Source of the DNA: Tautonia plasticadhaerens
GTDB lineage: Bacteria; Planctomycetota; Planctomycetia; Isosphaerales; Isosphaeraceae
Assembly: GCF_007752535.1 (NCBI RefSeq)
Contig: NZ_CP036426.1
Span: forward strand, 3,720,001 to 3,784,000
Reading direction: 5' to 3'
Length of the DNA stretch: 64,000 bases
Below the pieces are notes generated by a model that was given only the letters and a program-made list of their open reading frames with translations, did no database searches and was not told where the DNA came from. Shown one piece after another: positions 40,703-46,810 of the stretch (position 1 is the first letter of the stretch; the number at the start of each line of letters is the position of its first letter). Both the position numbers and the translations under genes were made by a program.

Positions 40703-42997
40703 GTGACCAGGCGAACGGCCAGCATCAAGGCGTCGAACGCCGGATCGAAGCCGAAGTCGAGCCCGAAGCCGAAATCGAAGCCGAAGCCCAAGGAACCGGC
40801 CGCCTCCTGGGTCGACCTGACCTGGGACCACCTCGACCGCTGGGCCGGCTCCCGGTCGGTCGAACGGGGGCGGTCCTACGAGCGGGGGGGCCGGGTGTCG
40901 GGCCTGTCGATCACCGCCGACGGGAGCCTGCTGGCCTGGGTGGACGGCACGTATCGCTATGCCACCACGGTGTCCCTCGCGGGGACCGGGGCGAAGCCCC
41001 TGCTGGAGTCGTCCTGCACCTGCCCGGTCGGCTTCGCTTGCAAGCACGCCGTGGCGGTCGTCGCCTCCTACCTCGACGCCGTCGCCTCCGGGGAGGACGT
41101 GCCGGTCGCCGACGAGGACGACGATCGCTGGGCCGAGCTGGAATCCGGCGGCTATACGGGGGACGAGTGGGACGCCTACGGCGCCGACGACGACCCCTGG
41201 GAGGAGGACGACCCGGACGACGAGCCCGCCCCCCCCCGACGCCGGGGCCGCAAGGCGCGCGGGGTCGGGGCGAAGGGCAAGGGCGAGGGCGGGTCGGCCT
41301 GGGACGCGAAGATCGAGCGGCACATCCGGTCGAAGTCCGAGGAGGAGCTGGCCGACCTCGTCCTGGCGCTGACGAAACGGTTCCCGGAGCTATATCGGGA
41401 GCTCAAGGATCGGGTCGCGCTGCAGGACGGGGACGCCGACCTGCTCGTCGCCGAGACCCGGAGGGAGATCCGCCGGGTCACCGCCCAGGAGGCCTGGGTC
41501 AACGCCTGGACCGGGGAGGGCAGCCTGCCCGACTACGAGCCGATCCGCCGCCGCCTCGCCCGGCTGCTGGAGCTGGGCTGCGCCGACGAGGTCGTCTCCC
41601 TCGGCCGGCTGCTCCTCGCCGAGGGCCTCCGGCAGGTCGGCGAGTCGCACGACGAGGGGGAGACCTCGCTCGCCCTCTCGAAGTGTTTCCCCGTCGTCTT
41701 CCGGGCGGTGACGCGGTCGAGCCTGTCCGGCCCCGATCGCCTGCTCATGGCCATCGACGCCGTCCTGGAGGACGACTACGGCGTCCTCGACGAGGCGGTC
41801 GGCCTCGTCCTCGACGGCCCCTCCTCCGCCGAGGACTGGTCGATGGCGGCCGACCGGCTGCTCGAACGCCTGGAGGACCAGGACGAGCCCGGGGGCGACC
41901 CCTCCGAGCCGGGCCACTTCCACCGCTCCTACGGGCGGGACCGCATCACCGACTGGATCGCCACCGCCCTGGAGCACTCCGGGCGCCCGGACGAGCTTGA
42001 GAAGATCTACGAGGCCGAGGCCCGGCGCACCCTCAGTTACGAGCGGCTGGTCGACTTCCATCTCAAGCGTCGACGGCTCGACGACGCCGAGCGCTGGGCC
42101 CGGGAGGGGATCTCGCAAACGATCGACCGCCTCCCAGGCATCGCCACTCACCTGGCCGATCGCCTGCTGGAGGTGGCCCGGGCCCGCAAGAAATGGGACG
42201 TCGTCGCCTCCCACGCCGCCGTCTCCTTCTTCGAGCGGCCGCGCCCCTCCGGCTTCGACGAGCTGATCAAGGCCGCCCGCAAGGCGAAGGCCGAGCCCGC
42301 CGTCCGGGAACACGCCCTCCGCTTCCTGGAGACCGGCGTCCTGCCCGTCCGCCCCCCCGCGCCGCCGCCCCGGCCGTCCCGGCCGCGGTCGAAGTCTCGG
42401 GCGAGGTCCACGGGGTCGAGTTCGGCCGGGCCCGCCCCGACGCCGGAGGCCCCGAAGGCCCCGGTGGTCGACCCCGGCTGGCCCCTGCCGACGCCCGACT
42501 ACCTCGTGCCGTTCCTCTCCCAGGCCCTCCGCTTCGACCCCGAGCCCCGCCCCCACCTCGACGTGCTCCTGCAAATGGCGATTGCCGCCAAGGACCCCGA
42601 GGCGGTGCTCCGCTGGTACGACCGGATGAAGGCCGAGCCGTCGCGGTCCCCCTACTCCTACGACCACGCGCGGGCCTACGCCGATCGGGTGGCCGGGGCG
42701 GTGGCCGACTCCCATCCCGACCGGGCGATCGCCATCTACCGCGATGCGCTGGACGCCCAGCTCCCCCACGCCCGGCCCTCGGCCTACGAGGCCGCCGCCG
42801 GCTACCTCCGGAAGCTCCGGCCGCTGTACATGGCCGTGGGACGGCCGGAGGAGTGGGAGGTGCTACTCTCCTCGATCCGGGAGTCGTACCGCAACCGCCC
42901 CCGGTTCATGGAGCAGCTCGACCGCCTCGACGGCCGCCCGATCGTCCAGTCCCCCCGGGGCCGGTCTCGGTCGGGCCCGAACGGGCGACGCCGTTGA
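40703..42997 (+). CDS. SWIM zinc-finger protein with helical repeat domain
   Basis: 764 residues from GTG 40703, which has GGAGG five bases upstream; an open frame continuing further upstream to 38888 is a shadow. A Lys/Pro-rich start (about 8-33) is followed by a SWIM domain: Cys105, Cys107, Cys113, His115 (CTCPVGFACKH), spacing CxC-x5-CxH, with the typical GRSYERGGRVSGL before it. Acidic linker and a basic PPRRRGRKARG segment follow. The remaining 480 residues are alpha-helical repeats (ALEHSGRPDELEKIYEAEARRTL and similar TPR-like units). SWIM domains bind DNA or proteins; the Lys-rich lead fits nucleic-acid binding. No partner gene is adjacent. Confidence 0.87.
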   Translation: MTRRTASIKASNAGSKPKSSPKPKSKPKPKEPAASWVDLTWDHLDRWAGSRSVERGRSYERGGRVSGLSITADGSLLAWVDGTYRYATTVSLAGTGAKPLLESSCTCPVGFACKHAVAVVASYLDAVASGEDVPVADEDDDRWAELESGGYTGDEWDAYGADDDPWEEDDPDDEPAPPRRRGRKARGVGAKGKGEGGSAWDAKIERHIRSKSEEELADLVLALTKRFPELYRELKDRVALQDGDADLLVAETRREIRRVTAQEAWVNAWTGEGSLPDYEPIRRRLARLLELGCADEVVSLGRLLLAEGLRQVGESHDEGETSLALSKCFPVVFRAVTRSSLSGPDRLLMAIDAVLEDDYGVLDEAVGLVLDGPSSAEDWSMAADRLLERLEDQDEPGGDPSEPGHFHRSYGRDRITDWIATALEHSGRPDELEKIYEAEARRTLSYERLVDFHLKRRRLDDAERWAREGISQTIDRLPGIATHLADRLLEVARARKKWDVVASHAAVSFFERPRPSGFDELIKAARKAKAEPAVREHALRFLETGVLPVRPPAPPPRPSRPRSKSRARSTGSSSAGPAPTPEAPKAPVVDPGWPLPTPDYLVPFLSQALRFDPEPRPHLDVLLQMAIAAKDPEAVLRWYDRMKAEPSRSPYSYDHARAYADRVAGAVADSHPDRAIAIYRDALDAQLPHARPSAYEAAAGYLRKLRPLYMAVGRPEEWEVLLSSIRESYRNRPRFMEQLDRLDGRPIVQSPRGRSRSGPNGRRR

Positions 42998-43028
42998 GGG
43001 GGCGAGGCGACGCGACGCGGGGGCCCGG

Positions 43029-43056
43029 CCCGCCGGGGCTTTGCCCTCCCGGCGGG
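43029..43056. terminator. Bidirectional terminator candidate
   Basis: Nine-base arms CCCGCCGGG (43029-43037) and CCCGGCGGG (43048-43056) with a 10-base loop containing TTT lie between the converging ends of the SWIM gene (42997) and the small DHp gene (43139). No T-run follows. Confidence 0.45.
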
Positions 43057-43138
43057 GTCGGCGAGGCTCCAGGGCGGTCCGACCGGGACCAGTCCCGGGC
43101 CCCGGACGGGGGCCGCGGACCGATCGGCGAGCGCCGAA

Positions 43139-43351
43139 TCAGGGGCGGTGGCCGTTGGTCTCTCGGGACTCGCTCAGCTCCTTGAGCGTCTCGGTGGCGC
43201 GCTCGACGTTGTTGCGGATGATGTCGACCATCTCCTCGCCCAACTCGCTCTCGAAGTTCGACTTGCGGATCGCGTTCGCGGCCGAGGAGATGGCGCTGAG
43301 CCGGTTCCGGAGGTCGTGGACCACCTCGCGGAGGTCGGTGGGGTCTGGCAT
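43139..43351 (-). CDS. Stand-alone histidine-kinase dimerisation (HisKA/DHp-like) protein
   Basis: Only 70 residues from ATG 43351 (GAGG five bases upstream). DLREVVHDLRNRLSAISSAA resembles the H-box of HisKA domains (HELRxPLxAI), with His12 as the would-be phosphorylation site; a second helix (EEMVDIIRNNVERATETLKEL) completes a DHp hairpin. There is no ATPase domain, receiver or sensor attached or adjacent. It may be a phosphotransfer or dominant-negative partner for kinases. An upstream ATG at 43441 is in frame but lies before the predicted transcription start from the sigma54-type site at 43446-43463. Family call is by motif and moderately sure. Confidence 0.72.
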   Translation of the reverse strand: MPDPTDLREVVHDLRNRLSAISSAANAIRKSNFESELGEEMVDIIRNNVERATETLKELSESRETNGHRP

Positions 43352-43445
43352 GGAGTCCTCGAAAGCTCGCCAGTCGGAGGGCGTGGTCGGCGGGATCGCA
43401 ACCCGGCGGGATCGGGGGGAGGGATCCACGATGTGAAACATTTTT

Positions 43446-43463
43446 ATGCAACTTTCATGCCAG
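43446..43463 (-). promoter_or_regulatory. Sigma54 (RpoN) type -24/-12 promoter
   Basis: On the minus strand the sequence reads CTGGCATG-AAAG-TTGCAT. It matches the -24/-12 consensus (YTGGCACGrNNNTTGCW) at every position except T for the seventh C, with GG and GC the required ten bases apart. Transcription would start about 12 bases beyond GC, near 43437, giving a leader of about 86 bases to the DHp protein. Needs an enhancer-binding protein; no such gene is in the window. Confidence 0.65.
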
Positions 43464-43472
43464 CCCCCGCGA

Positions 43473-43562
43473 GACCGAGGCCCGAGTTGCCGACGGGGGC
43501 GACCCCTGCGTAGGCTGTCGGGGTCGGGGTCGGCTACGGATCCCGCAACTCGGGCCTCGGTC
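43473..43562. repeat. 18-bp perfect inverted repeat spanning a divergent promoter region
   Basis: GACCGAGGCCCGAGTTGC (43473-43490) and its exact complement (43545-43562) are 54 bases apart; beyond one mismatch four further bases also pair. The left arm overlaps the -35 of the plus-strand promoter candidate. It may bind a regulator at two half-sites or form a large stem in a leader RNA. Confidence 0.6.
43487..43516 (+). promoter_or_regulatory. Putative promoter for the 179-aa membrane protein
   Basis: TTGCCG (43487-43492), 18 bases, TAGGCT (43511-43516). The -10 and spacer are those of the better candidate at 63780-63809. Leader about 85 bases. Confidence 0.4.
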
Positions 43563-43609
43563 GCGCGGCCGGGGCCGGGCGGATCGATCCGGGGGCGAAG
43601 GGGGCAGCG

Positions 43610-44149
43610 ATGGGCCGGATGGTCCTGATCGTGGCGGCCGGGTGGGCCGCGCTGCTCTGCGGGTGCTTCGTCCTGGGGCTGGGCCCCGGCGGGGGAGGGG
43701 GGCACGGCGCGATCGGCTGGGGAGCGACCGCGGCCGGGGTGCTCGTCCATGCGTCGGCGGTGGCCGTCCTGCGGGTCGTCGGCCGTCGGGTCCGAGGGGC
43801 CGAGCGGTCCCATCCCCCCGCCTCGCCGGGCGGTCGGTTCGGCCCCCGGGCGGCCCGGAACGCCGACCGGGTCGTGCCGATCGCCGGCTCGGCCCCGCTG
43901 CTGCTCCTGCTCGCCGCCCTGACCGGCCCGACGGCCCGCCCGACCCCGCCCGGCGAGGCGGGCCTCGGGCACCTCGCCCTCTGCTCGGTGGCCCTCGGCT
44001 TCAACCTCGCCGCCCTCGCGATCGAGGTCGTCTCGATCCGATCCCAGCTCCGGTTGCTGCGCGACGCCTCCTCCCCGGCCGACCCCCCGGGCCCGACCCC
44101 CGACCGCCGATCGGTCGCCCCCGGCACGTCCCCGGGCCGGCCCCCCTGA
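43610..44149 (+). CDS. Membrane protein, 179 aa
   Basis: Four hydrophobic segments in two pairs: MVLIVAAGWAALLCGCFVLGLG and GWGATAAGVLVHASAVAVLRVVG, then RVVPIAGSAPLLLLLAAL and LGHLALCSVALGFNLAALAIEVV. A basic cytosolic loop (RRVRGAERSHPP) lies between the pairs, and a Pro-rich tail ends the protein. Divergent from the DHp gene, from which it is separated by the 18-bp inverted repeat. No known family. Confidence 0.72.
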   Translation: MGRMVLIVAAGWAALLCGCFVLGLGPGGGGGHGAIGWGATAAGVLVHASAVAVLRVVGRRVRGAERSHPPASPGGRFGPRAARNADRVVPIAGSAPLLLLLAALTGPTARPTPPGEAGLGHLALCSVALGFNLAALAIEVVSIRSQLRLLRDASSPADPPGPTPDRRSVAPGTSPGRPP

Positions 44150-44525: not shown

Positions 44526-45788
44526 ATGTCGCCCCTGCTGGTCATCGTCTCGATCGTCCTGGTCGATCTGCTCGGCTTCTCGCTGGTCATGCCGCTGTTG
44601 CCGAGGTATGCGGAGCTGTACGGCTTCGACGAGCGGATGATCGGCGCCCTGCTCGCCGCCTTCCCGCTCTGCCAGCTCGTCGCCGGGCCGGTGCTCGGCC
44701 GCCTGAGCGACCGCTACGGCCGCCGGCCGATCCTGCTGATCAGCCAGGTCGGCACGACGGCCTCCTTCCTGATGATCGGCCTGAGCGACTCCTTCGTCCT
44801 GATGCTGCTGGGCCGGATGCTCGACGGCTTCTCCGGCGGGAACATCCTGGTGGCCCAGGCGTACATCGCCGACGTGACGAAGCCGGAGGGGCGCTCCAGG
44901 GGGCTGGGGCTCATCGGCGCCGCCTTCGGCGTGGGGTTCGTGCTCGGCCCGCTGCTGGGGGGCGTGCTCGTCTCGCTGCCGATCGGCCCGACCTGGCAGC
45001 TCCGCCTGCCCTTCCTGGTGGCCGCCGGGTTCTCGACGGCCGCCTGGATCCTGACCATCTTCTGGCTGCCGGAATCCCGCCCCCCCGGGGAACGGGGGGG
45101 GCCGGACGCCTCCCGGGCCGCCGCGAGGGCCCCCAGCTGGCTGGGCGTCTTCCGGGCCCTGGGGGACCGCCGGGCCGGCCCCCTGGTGCTGCTGGGGGCC
45201 CTGCTCGTGCTCTCGTTCGCCAGCCTGGAGGGGACCTTCAGCCTGTTCCTGGAGCGTCGGATGGGCTGGTCGGCCGGGATCGCGGCCTACTGGTTCGCGG
45301 GCCTGGGGCTGGTCAGCGCCCTGATGCAGGGGGGGCTGATCCGCCGCCTCGTCCCCCGGTTCGGCGAGGCCCGGCTCATCCCCGCGGGGCTGCTCCTGCT
45401 GGCCGGGGGGCTGGCCGCGCTGGCCGTCTCCGACGAGGTCGCCGGCCTGGCCGCGGCCGTGCTGCTGGTCGGCCTCGGCCAGGGGATGGCGGCGCCGACG
45501 ATCTCGGGGCTGCTCTCCCGGGGCGTCCCCCCCGACCGCCAGGGCCGGATCTTCGGCGCCTTGCTCTCGGCCCAGACGCTCGCCCGGCTGGTGAACTACC
45601 AGGCCTCCAACGAGCTGCTCGGCCGCCTCGGCCCGGCCGCCCCCTACTGGCTCGGCGCCGCCATCGGCGGCCTCGCCCTGGCCCTCTGCCCCTGGGCGAT
45701 CCGGGCCTCGGGCAAGCCCGCCGACCCCCCGGACGAGTTCCCCCGGGCCGCCGTCCCCGCCGAGGAACCCGCCGCCCGGGATGCCTGA
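44526..45788 (+). CDS. MFS transporter, TetA/DHA1-like
   Basis: 420 residues with twelve predicted helices. The first helix SPLLVIVSIVLVDLLGFSLVMPLLPRYAE is typical of the TetA/MdtG branch. The loop 2-3 motif GRLSDRYGRRPILL is the classic MFS motif A, and motif C-like LIGAAFGVGFVLGPLLGG is in helix 5. A cytosolic Pro/Arg-rich loop separates the two halves (about 185-210). Helix 11 carries GLLSRGVPPDRQGRIFGALLSAQTLAR, a second motif A-like element. It probably exports small molecules using the proton gradient. Nothing indicates the substrate. The following gene is an ECF sigma factor on the same strand, 191 bases away. Confidence 0.9.
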   Translation: MSPLLVIVSIVLVDLLGFSLVMPLLPRYAELYGFDERMIGALLAAFPLCQLVAGPVLGRLSDRYGRRPILLISQVGTTASFLMIGLSDSFVLMLLGRMLDGFSGGNILVAQAYIADVTKPEGRSRGLGLIGAAFGVGFVLGPLLGGVLVSLPIGPTWQLRLPFLVAAGFSTAAWILTIFWLPESRPPGERGGPDASRAAARAPSWLGVFRALGDRRAGPLVLLGALLVLSFASLEGTFSLFLERRMGWSAGIAAYWFAGLGLVSALMQGGLIRRLVPRFGEARLIPAGLLLLAGGLAALAVSDEVAGLAAAVLLVGLGQGMAAPTISGLLSRGVPPDRQGRIFGALLSAQTLARLVNYQASNELLGRLGPAAPYWLGAAIGGLALALCPWAIRASGKPADPPDEFPRAAVPAEEPAARDA

Positions 45789-45979: not shown

Positions 45980-46582
45980 TTGGCTGACTCTCCAGAAACC
46001 CGGCCGAGCCTGCTGGTCCGCCTCGGGTTACCCCGGGACGACCGGGCGTGGGAGGAGTTCGTGGAGCTGTACGGCCCGCTGGTCCGCCGACTGGCCCGGC
46101 GCAGCGGGTTGCAGGAGACCGACGCCGACGACCTGGCCCAGGACGTCTTCCGGGCCGTGGCCGGGGCGATCGACCGCTGGGATCCGGACCCCTCCCGGGG
46201 GTCGTTCCGGGCCTGGCTCTCCCGGATTTCCCGCAACCTGATCGTCAACCTGATCGCCGCCCGACGCCGGCACCCGGCCGGCACGGGGGCCGGGGGGACC
46301 GACATGGTGGCGATGCTCCACGCCCAGCCCTCCTCCGACGAGGACTCGGCCCTCTTCGACCTCGAATACCGCCGTCGCCTCTTCGCCCTGGCGGCCGATC
46401 GCGTCCGGGGCACCGTCCGGGGGGCCACCTGGCAGGCCTTCTGGAGGACCGGCGTCGAGGGCCAGGACGCCCGGGCCGTGGCCGAGGCGCTGGGCCTCAG
46501 CCCCGGCGCGGTCTACGTGGCGAGGAGCCGGGTCATGGCCCGGCTCCGTCGGGAGATCGAGGCCATCGAGGGGGACGGGTGA
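45980..46582 (+). CDS. ECF-type RNA polymerase sigma factor
   Basis: 200 residues from TTG 45980, chosen because ADSPETRPSLLVRLGLPRDDRAWEEF is the usual start of this planctomycete ECF family; GTG 45947 with AAGGGG upstream is an alternative. Region 2: YGPLVRRLARRSGLQETDADDLAQDVFRAVAGAIDRWDPDPSRGSFRAWLSRISRNLIVNLIAARRR. Region 4: VRGTVRGATWQAFWRTGVEGQDARAVAEALGLSPGAVYVARSRVMARLRREI. Both are complete. The following gene is a kinase whose N-terminus looks like an anti-sigma zinc finger, so regulation is probably through it. Planctomycete ECF groups next to Ser/Thr kinases are known. Confidence 0.9.
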   Translation: MADSPETRPSLLVRLGLPRDDRAWEEFVELYGPLVRRLARRSGLQETDADDLAQDVFRAVAGAIDRWDPDPSRGSFRAWLSRISRNLIVNLIAARRRHPAGTGAGGTDMVAMLHAQPSSDEDSALFDLEYRRRLFALAADRVRGTVRGATWQAFWRTGVEGQDARAVAEALGLSPGAVYVARSRVMARLRREIEAIEGDG

Positions 46583-46618
46583 GACCGCATTGCCTGGAAG
46601 ACACGCCTTCGGGTGGCT

Positions 46619-46721
46619 GGGGTCTCGCGGACGAGACCCCGGTCGCCGAGGCCACCGGACCGGGGTCTCGCGGACGAGACCCCGGCCACCCGACGGACCG
46701 GGGTCTCGCGGACGAGACCCC
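46619..46721. repeat. Three copies of a 22-bp palindrome
   Basis: Arms GGGGTCTCG and CGAGACCCC with loop CGGA occur at 46619-46640, 46662-46683 and 46700-46721; flanks (GGACC before, GGCCACC after) are also repeated in the last two. They sit between the ECF sigma stop and the kinase start, on a probable shared transcript, and could stack as hairpins that attenuate or stabilise the message, or bind a protein as DNA. Confidence 0.75.
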
Positions 46722-46810
46722 GGCCACCCGAACGTGATTGATTCAGGCGATTCCGTATGTGACGCCCCGCCCGCCGAGGACGCCGACGACCCAGGACGAG
46801 GAACCGCGCC

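Follow-up and report, generated by a model that had tools for sequence, protein, structure and literature searches.

Organization of the locus

The window, by which we mean the whole stretch of 64,000 nucleotides of Tautonia plasticadhaerens DNA that was analysed, carries on its minus strand a short gene for a HisKA/DHp protein of 70 residues, preceded by a ribosome-binding site and, further upstream, by a sequence resembling a sigma54 promoter; a probable membrane protein and an MFS-type transporter are encoded on the opposite strand (Table 1). The order DHp gene, divergent membrane protein, MFS transporter is the same in all four of the Tautonia genomes that formed our genus set, namely G000 (the window's genome), G040, G041 and G042. 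The divergent protein has no Pfam match, and when the list of ORFs between 38 and 49 kb was read by eye, no gene for a receiver or a histidine kinase was recognized next to the DHp gene.

Table 1. Features at the DHp locus, in window coordinates.
Feature	Position	Strand	Remarks
70-residue kinase-less HisKA/DHp protein, H12-D13-L14-R15-N16 box	43139..43351 (stop codon included)	minus	68-residue orthologues in three relatives, start Met aligned
Ribosome-binding site GAGG	43357..43360	minus	equal distance to the ATG in 4/4 genomes
Putative sigma54 promoter, 18-mer CTGGCATGAAAGTTGCAT	43446..43463	minus	from sequence; 1 mismatch; kept in 4/4 Tautonia genomes
-24 element TGGC of the putative promoter	GG at 43461-43460	minus	
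-12 element TTGC of the putative promoter	GC at 43449-43448	minus	
Inverted repeat, left arm	43467..43490		begins 4 nt from the sigma54 site on its upstream side
Conserved block TTGCCG-N18-TAGGCT, divergent sigma70-like promoter by eye	43487..43516	plus	alignment of 4 upstream regions
Inverted repeat, right arm	43545..43568		
Divergent 179-residue probable membrane protein (by eye)	43610..44149	plus	syntenic in 4/4 genomes, 35-37% identity
MFS-type transporter (named by eye from sequence)	44526..45788	plus	syntenic in 4/4 genomes, 78-82% identity

Alignment of the upstream regions revealed blocks of the form TTGCCG-N17/18-TASSCT, conserved on the plus strand across the genomes, which by eye look like the promoter of the divergent gene but could instead be an activator site. 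A strict consensus scan of positions 42990-43700 returned no sigma70-type promoter or terminator, and the TTGCCG-N18-TAGGCT block did not register in it either. The same region of the window contains an inverted repeat with arms of 24 nt that are 96% complementary and separated by 54 nt, for which the three relatives showed no counterpart in a repeat search. Elsewhere in the window, a short repetitive stretch (46580-46740) lies between a sigma-factor-like ORF and a serine/threonine-kinase-like ORF, with repeated peptide motifs in overlapping ORFs.

The sigma54-type site and its conservation

The 16-mer core of the site, TGGCATGAAAGTTGCA, differs from the consensus TGGCACG-N4-TTGCW by a single mismatch (C to T), and the sequence-only reading, which had described a fit in all but one position with correct spacing, was therefore right on this point. 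GG at -24 and GC at -12 lie 10 nt apart inside TGGCAC-N5-TTGC, the arrangement that marks a sigma54 promoter; the published consensus is TGGCAC-N5-7-TTGCT (PMC12316311). At one mismatch or fewer, the site is the sole match to the consensus in the whole window, where 0.14 such matches would be expected from shuffled windows; because 13 of 100 shuffles contained at least one equal match, the sequence by itself is no more than suggestive of a sigma54 promoter. Tolerating up to three mismatches gave 38 matches in the window against 45 expected, so that loose matching is uninformative. The ATG lies 95 nt downstream of the 16-mer, which confirms the earlier placement of the site 95 bases before a DHp-like protein of 70 residues. 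From the usual spacing to the -12 element, transcription is predicted to start at about 43436. The AT-rich setting described in the same reading holds for some 15-20 nt directly downstream of the -12 element in the window's genome, but not, by eye, for the three relatives.

A site in the same orientation precedes the gene in all four genomes of the genus, at -111 from the ATG in G000 (TGGCATGAAAGTTGCA), -114 in G040 (CGGCGCACCATTTGCA), -112 in G041 (CGGCGCGGCAATTGCA) and -107 in G042 (CGGCCCGGTATTTGCT), and the GG-N10-GC doublets, whose conservation in orthologous loci had been set as a check beforehand, are kept in every one. In the three relatives, the sites show two to three mismatches to the general consensus and fall outside the 39 exact pattern matches considered below. 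Of the 16 aligned columns of the site, eight are identical in the four genomes, GGC and TTGC among them, as compared with 13 of 94 in the leader and 20 of 71 just upstream. In dinucleotide shuffles, a site of equal quality arose between -116 and -106 in 0 (G000), 31 (G040), 11 (G041) and 8 (G042) of 20,000 trials; with any position in 250 nt allowed, the counts were 1, 796, 155 and 134 of 20,000, respectively. This test takes the genomes one by one, and the four are not independent, because G040 and G041 are closely related to each other. We regard the promoter as well supported on these comparative grounds.

The machinery for its use is encoded in each of the four genomes, with one match to rpoN (PF04552) and 18-22 matches, weak ones included, to the activator-type family PF00158, some of which have receiver domains by eye. 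The pattern YGGCAYGN4TTGCW was found 15 times in G000 against one occurrence of its reversed control, 10 times against four in G040, five against three in G041 and nine against three in G042, giving a genus total of 39 against 11; the excess stands out in G000 and is modest in G041. In the 41 genomes of the family outside Tautonia, 467 occurrences compare with 191 of the control, with an excess in 35 of the 41. One sequence, TGGCATGGAGTTTGCG, has many letter-identical copies in G000 (at L031 and L040, for example) and, in the two loci that were read, lies close to copies of a single protein of 423 residues; it seems to belong to a mobile repeat, and its recurrence inflates counts of sigma54 sites with one mismatch.

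The 70-residue protein

The window protein matches HisKA (PF00512) with 27.3 bits (E 3.9e-6; cut-off 26.9). Three of the four orthologues score 27.3, 27.3 and 27.5 bits, and the fourth 25.4, below the cut-off, with E-values over the four ranging from 3.2e-6 to 1.5e-5; in a genome-wide HisKA scan, which gave 57 matches in the window's genome including the lone DHp, the window copy scored 26.1 bits, just below 26.9. The proteins of the relatives are 63-65% identical to the window copy. The box H12-D/E-L-R-N16 is invariant in the four (HDLRN or HELRN) and fits H-E/D-x-x-T/N. Five residues after the His, all four proteins have Arg, while the five nearest kinases of the genome have Pro; this proline forms the helix kink of ChpT (PMC3433190), and its replacement by Arg might alter activity.

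The AlphaFold model, a monomer of moderate confidence (mean pLDDT 76.5, pTM 0.48), consists of two long helices, residues 4-30 and 35-66. Pfam gives no match to a HATPase/CA domain and the ORF stops at 70 residues (68 in the relatives), so that the protein does not qualify as a sensor kinase, and Hpt (PF01627) is absent from the Pfam matches up to E = 1. The 70 residues hold no further domain of the degenerate ATPase kind carried by phosphotransferases of the Spo0B/ChpT/PhyT type; Spo0B, too, keeps a C-terminal ATPase-like domain. Since there is no ATPase domain, the protein is presumably unable to autophosphorylate. Foldseek returned no match in the PDB at E up to 0.001, and the weak matches to the DHp domains of ZraS, CpxA and RetS-GacS were not significant and were not counted as evidence; a sequence search of the PDB gave a histidine kinase as its best match (E 0.027). 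The protein is an isolated HisKA/DHp domain of two predicted helices with no ATPase domain match, as had been proposed when it was called a lone kinase dimerization domain. At the level of sequence both halves of that reading hold, the sigma54-type site being kept at all four loci, and the protein may, as was suggested there, carry out a signalling step.

Among 45 genomes of the family, strong matches to the protein occur in four, all Tautonia, and weak matches in three others (L005, L006 and L007), two of which (L006 and L007) were read as kinases and rejected as homologues. With a limit of E = 1e-6, the 391 other genomes of the phylum sample yielded no homologue, and a scan of GTDB contigs, which may not include the window's own genome, gave one confirmed locus, in T. 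sociabilis. By these similarity searches the DHp-only gene is limited to the genus within the genomes searched.

Stress-type genes behind sigma54-type sites

Directly behind nine of the 39 exact sites stands a gene of a Pfam-confirmed stress-type family, namely glutaredoxin, DUF2171, a Dps-like ferritin, Pyrid_ox_like, Mn_catalase, HSP20, Usp and, twice, DUF1328. Two further sites (L097 and L083) precede genes recognized by eye as orthologues of the Dps-like gene and the catalase gene; the remaining exact sites lie before membrane, lipoprotein, metabolic or unassigned genes, and four of the 39 (L037, L086, L099 and L101) have no assigned gene. The Pfam set comprised 20 proteins or pieces, three of which (one YflT-like piece, one CsbD piece and one DUF2188 protein) do not come from the gene immediately behind an exact site. 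The loci read with sigma54-type sites before stress-type genes were L013, L016, L020, L022, L024, L035, L084, L093, L094, L097, L098 and L108, and near-consensus sites were also seen before divergent DUF1328 and CsbD genes in Tautonia.

The last two families were examined throughout the genus by scanning the 300 nt upstream of all DUF1328 genes above the cut-off and all CsbD genes for sites with at most two mismatches; 18 of 19 genes were used, one CsbD gene being dropped because its locus was cut (L133), and a DUF1328 gene below the cut-off (L126) was left out. Such a site was present upstream of 11 of the 18 (nine of 12 DUF1328 and two of six CsbD genes), where shuffling predicts 0.15, and seven had none; these figures are to be read knowing that the two families were picked after sites had been seen before some of their members, that two of the 11 sites (L114 and L121) were already among the 39 and that several of the genes are mutual orthologues. 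In the comparison set, drawn from the window and the loci of the three relatives, two of 63 other genes had such a site, gene starts having been set differently for the two sets.

Judged by these patterns, a group of general-stress-type genes in Tautonia is very probably driven by sigma54. The lone DHp gene has the same type of promoter as these genes, and this apparent stress gene set is a larger context that the sequence-only reading missed. For Planctomycetia, sigma54 promoters have been predicted before genes for Usp, chaperones and proteases, and before csrA in Pirellula, and this predicted regulon resembles that of Tautonia in placing sigma54 promoters before stress-type genes such as Usp (PMC12316311); in the main text of that source, the terms 'Dps', 'catalase', 'Isosphaer' and 'general stress' have no occurrences. 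In other Isosphaeraceae (L147, L151 and L154), exact sites were observed before two Hsp20-like genes and one CsrA-like gene, named by eye.

Search for an activator and a partner

An activator site common to the DHp and stress promoters was not found by counting dyads against shuffles or against real background, nor by a repeat search, and co-control with the stress genes is for that reason unproven. The dyad counts against shuffles were swamped by CGATCG-like words that occur genome-wide, and against real background none went beyond multiple testing, the best reaching 7e-7 in 169,373 tests. This best dyad, GTCA-N13-GCGG, was rejected as a common site, being limited to four orthologous bPH_2/DUF1328 promoters and one other site; the repeat GGTCA-N16-GGTCA, with at most two mismatches, was likewise rejected, being no commoner upstream of the sites (11 of 42) than in the background (134 of 400).

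One receiver-type sigma54 activator, at C1:3888626-3890068 with its receiver domain recognized by eye, was chosen by neighbourhood only and is a candidate regulator of the stress set. The distance to the sigma54 sites of the bPH_2 gene is 5-6 kb in G000, G040 and G041, an activator match lying about 6 kb from the orthologous site in the last two; in G042, the corresponding contig carries none of the 18 PF00158 matches. Inspection of its locus (L110, G000:C1:3885792-3890068) by eye showed that a hybrid kinase and this activator adjoin a DUF1328/bPH_2 gene pair of sigma54 type, and the two regulators lie 2-7 kb from the sigma54-type sites at C1:3.883-3.890 Mb. We found no direct link between the lone DHp and this activator. 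A search by sequence for a cognate kinase led to what are, by eye, ordinary hybrid kinases as the nearest DHp domains of the genome (best E 0.0024), and the kinase beside the candidate activator gave no match to the lone DHp; as the closest kinases are only weakly similar and this one is unlike the DHp, no partner is indicated.

Proposed role and alternatives

Several known systems bear on what such a protein could do. The DHp of NtrB or EnvZ suffices for phosphatase activity, carries the conserved box H-E/D-xx-T/N and, when isolated, gives a constitutive phosphatase phenotype in vivo (PMC3510030). Like these pieces, the Tautonia protein is a HisKA DHp alone with the same box; unlike them, it is not an expressed piece of a full kinase but the product of a free-standing gene kept in the genus. 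The closest analogue is PhyT (formerly PhyP) of Sphingomonas melonis, a phosphotransferase and negative regulator of the general stress response, which was first taken for a phosphatase; tests in vitro detected no such activity, and its negative effect was attributed to the formation of a complex (PMC5898713). The likeness lies in a DHp-containing protein that has no working kinase and, for PhyT, is tied to the general stress response. However, PhyT is anchored in the membrane, combines a DHp of the HRxxN type with a degenerate ATPase domain and belongs to the PhyR/EcfG system, whereas the Tautonia protein is a 70-residue HisKA alone behind a sigma54-type promoter. Spo0B and ChpT, which form dimers of helical hairpins and accept phosphate on a His, are cited as degenerated kinases (PMC5898713, PMC3433190), and we liken the Tautonia protein to them by organization; ChpT has a C-terminal ATPase-like domain (PMC3433190), which the Tautonia protein lacks. 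Certain archaeal regulators are likewise natural HisKA proteins with no HATPase domain, but they add receiver and PAS/GAF domains to it, whereas the Tautonia protein is HisKA only (PMC5847659).

The reading that we favour, to which we give a probability of roughly 0.43, is that the site functions as the sigma54 promoter for what is probably a one-gene transcription unit, whose product damps a phosphorylated receiver in trans. An enhancer-binding activator would switch the promoter on, probably along with the sigma54-driven stress genes. The product would be a minimal DHp with no ATPase domain, unable to phosphorylate itself and presumably assembled as a homodimeric four-helix bundle, and it would most likely act on its receiver by dephosphorylation or by holding it in a complex. 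It would then restrain, by feedback, a circuit of the two-component or NtrC type, the partner and the direction of the effect being our conjecture. By analogy with PhyT and with the isolated DHp domains, we take damping to be the most likely action and a phosphorelay to be its main rival.

In that rival, the promoter is equally real and the protein is a relay intermediate that passes phosphate from a receiver phosphorylated by hybrid kinases to His12 and on to an output receiver, so that the signal is amplified and not damped. H12 and the acidic residue adjacent to it are kept in all four proteins, and such an acidic residue has been tied to kinase function (PMC3510030); the five nearest kinases in the genome look by eye like hybrids with receivers, and ChpT, Spo0B and PhyT are all phosphotransferases (PMC5898713, PMC3433190). 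However, in the same sources ChpT and PhyT retain the ATPase-like domain that is absent here, and the ORFs between 38 and 49 kb, read by eye, offered no recognizable receiver or kinase gene beside the DHp gene, so we consider a relay somewhat unlikely, if still the strongest of the alternatives. A good deal less probable is that the protein has no chemistry of its own and serves as a dominant-negative subunit or adaptor, titrating full histidine kinases into mixed dimers under stress. The DHp hairpin is, by established knowledge and in agreement with the predicted helices, the dimerization unit of HisKA kinases, and the genome's HisKA complement would supply possible partners; a pure dimerization decoy would have no need of the catalytic box, which is nevertheless invariant in the four proteins.

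A different kind of explanation would deny the promoter itself, with the sigma54-like sequence arising by chance or serving as a conserved element of another use, such as activator binding for the divergent gene, while the DHp gene would have another promoter. The frequency of equal matches in shuffled windows allows for chance, further conserved blocks adjoin the site, and no activator site was identified. Nevertheless, it is the core letters of sigma54 recognition (GGC and TTGC) that are kept in the four genomes, in the right orientation and at a near-constant distance from the ribosome-binding site and ATG; the pattern is in excess over its control genome-wide, and the consensus scan around the gene offered no sigma70-type promoter in its place. 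We therefore hold this explanation to be very improbable.

Returning to the damping of a receiver, the favoured role could be set in a wider scheme, in which the general stress response of the Tautonia lineage runs on sigma54 and a genus-limited, free-standing DHp, itself induced through sigma54, adjusts how active the NtrC-type activator is and so closes a feedback loop; the protein would then be a 70-residue analogue of PhyT with no ATPase remnant. This fuller scheme is speculative, and we think it unlikely as a whole.

Significance

Searches of open-licence literature brought up no natural protein that consists of a DHp alone and is described as being under sigma54 control, which is no proof of absence. 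To our knowledge, a DHp protein with no working kinase is in most cases a degenerate two-domain kinase, a multidomain regulator or a laboratory construct. A natural, conserved gene for nothing but a DHp would come close to the smallest case in which the action of this domain on its own could be tested. The survey of the genus suggests that sigma54, a factor dependent on an activator and ATP, stands behind the genes for Dps-like ferritin, Mn catalase, Usp, Hsp20 and DUF1328 proteins and some of those for CsbD proteins, and the activator of such a stress programme becomes a concrete and searchable target. Its gene having a promoter of the same kind, the 70-residue protein may adjust a stress signalling circuit.
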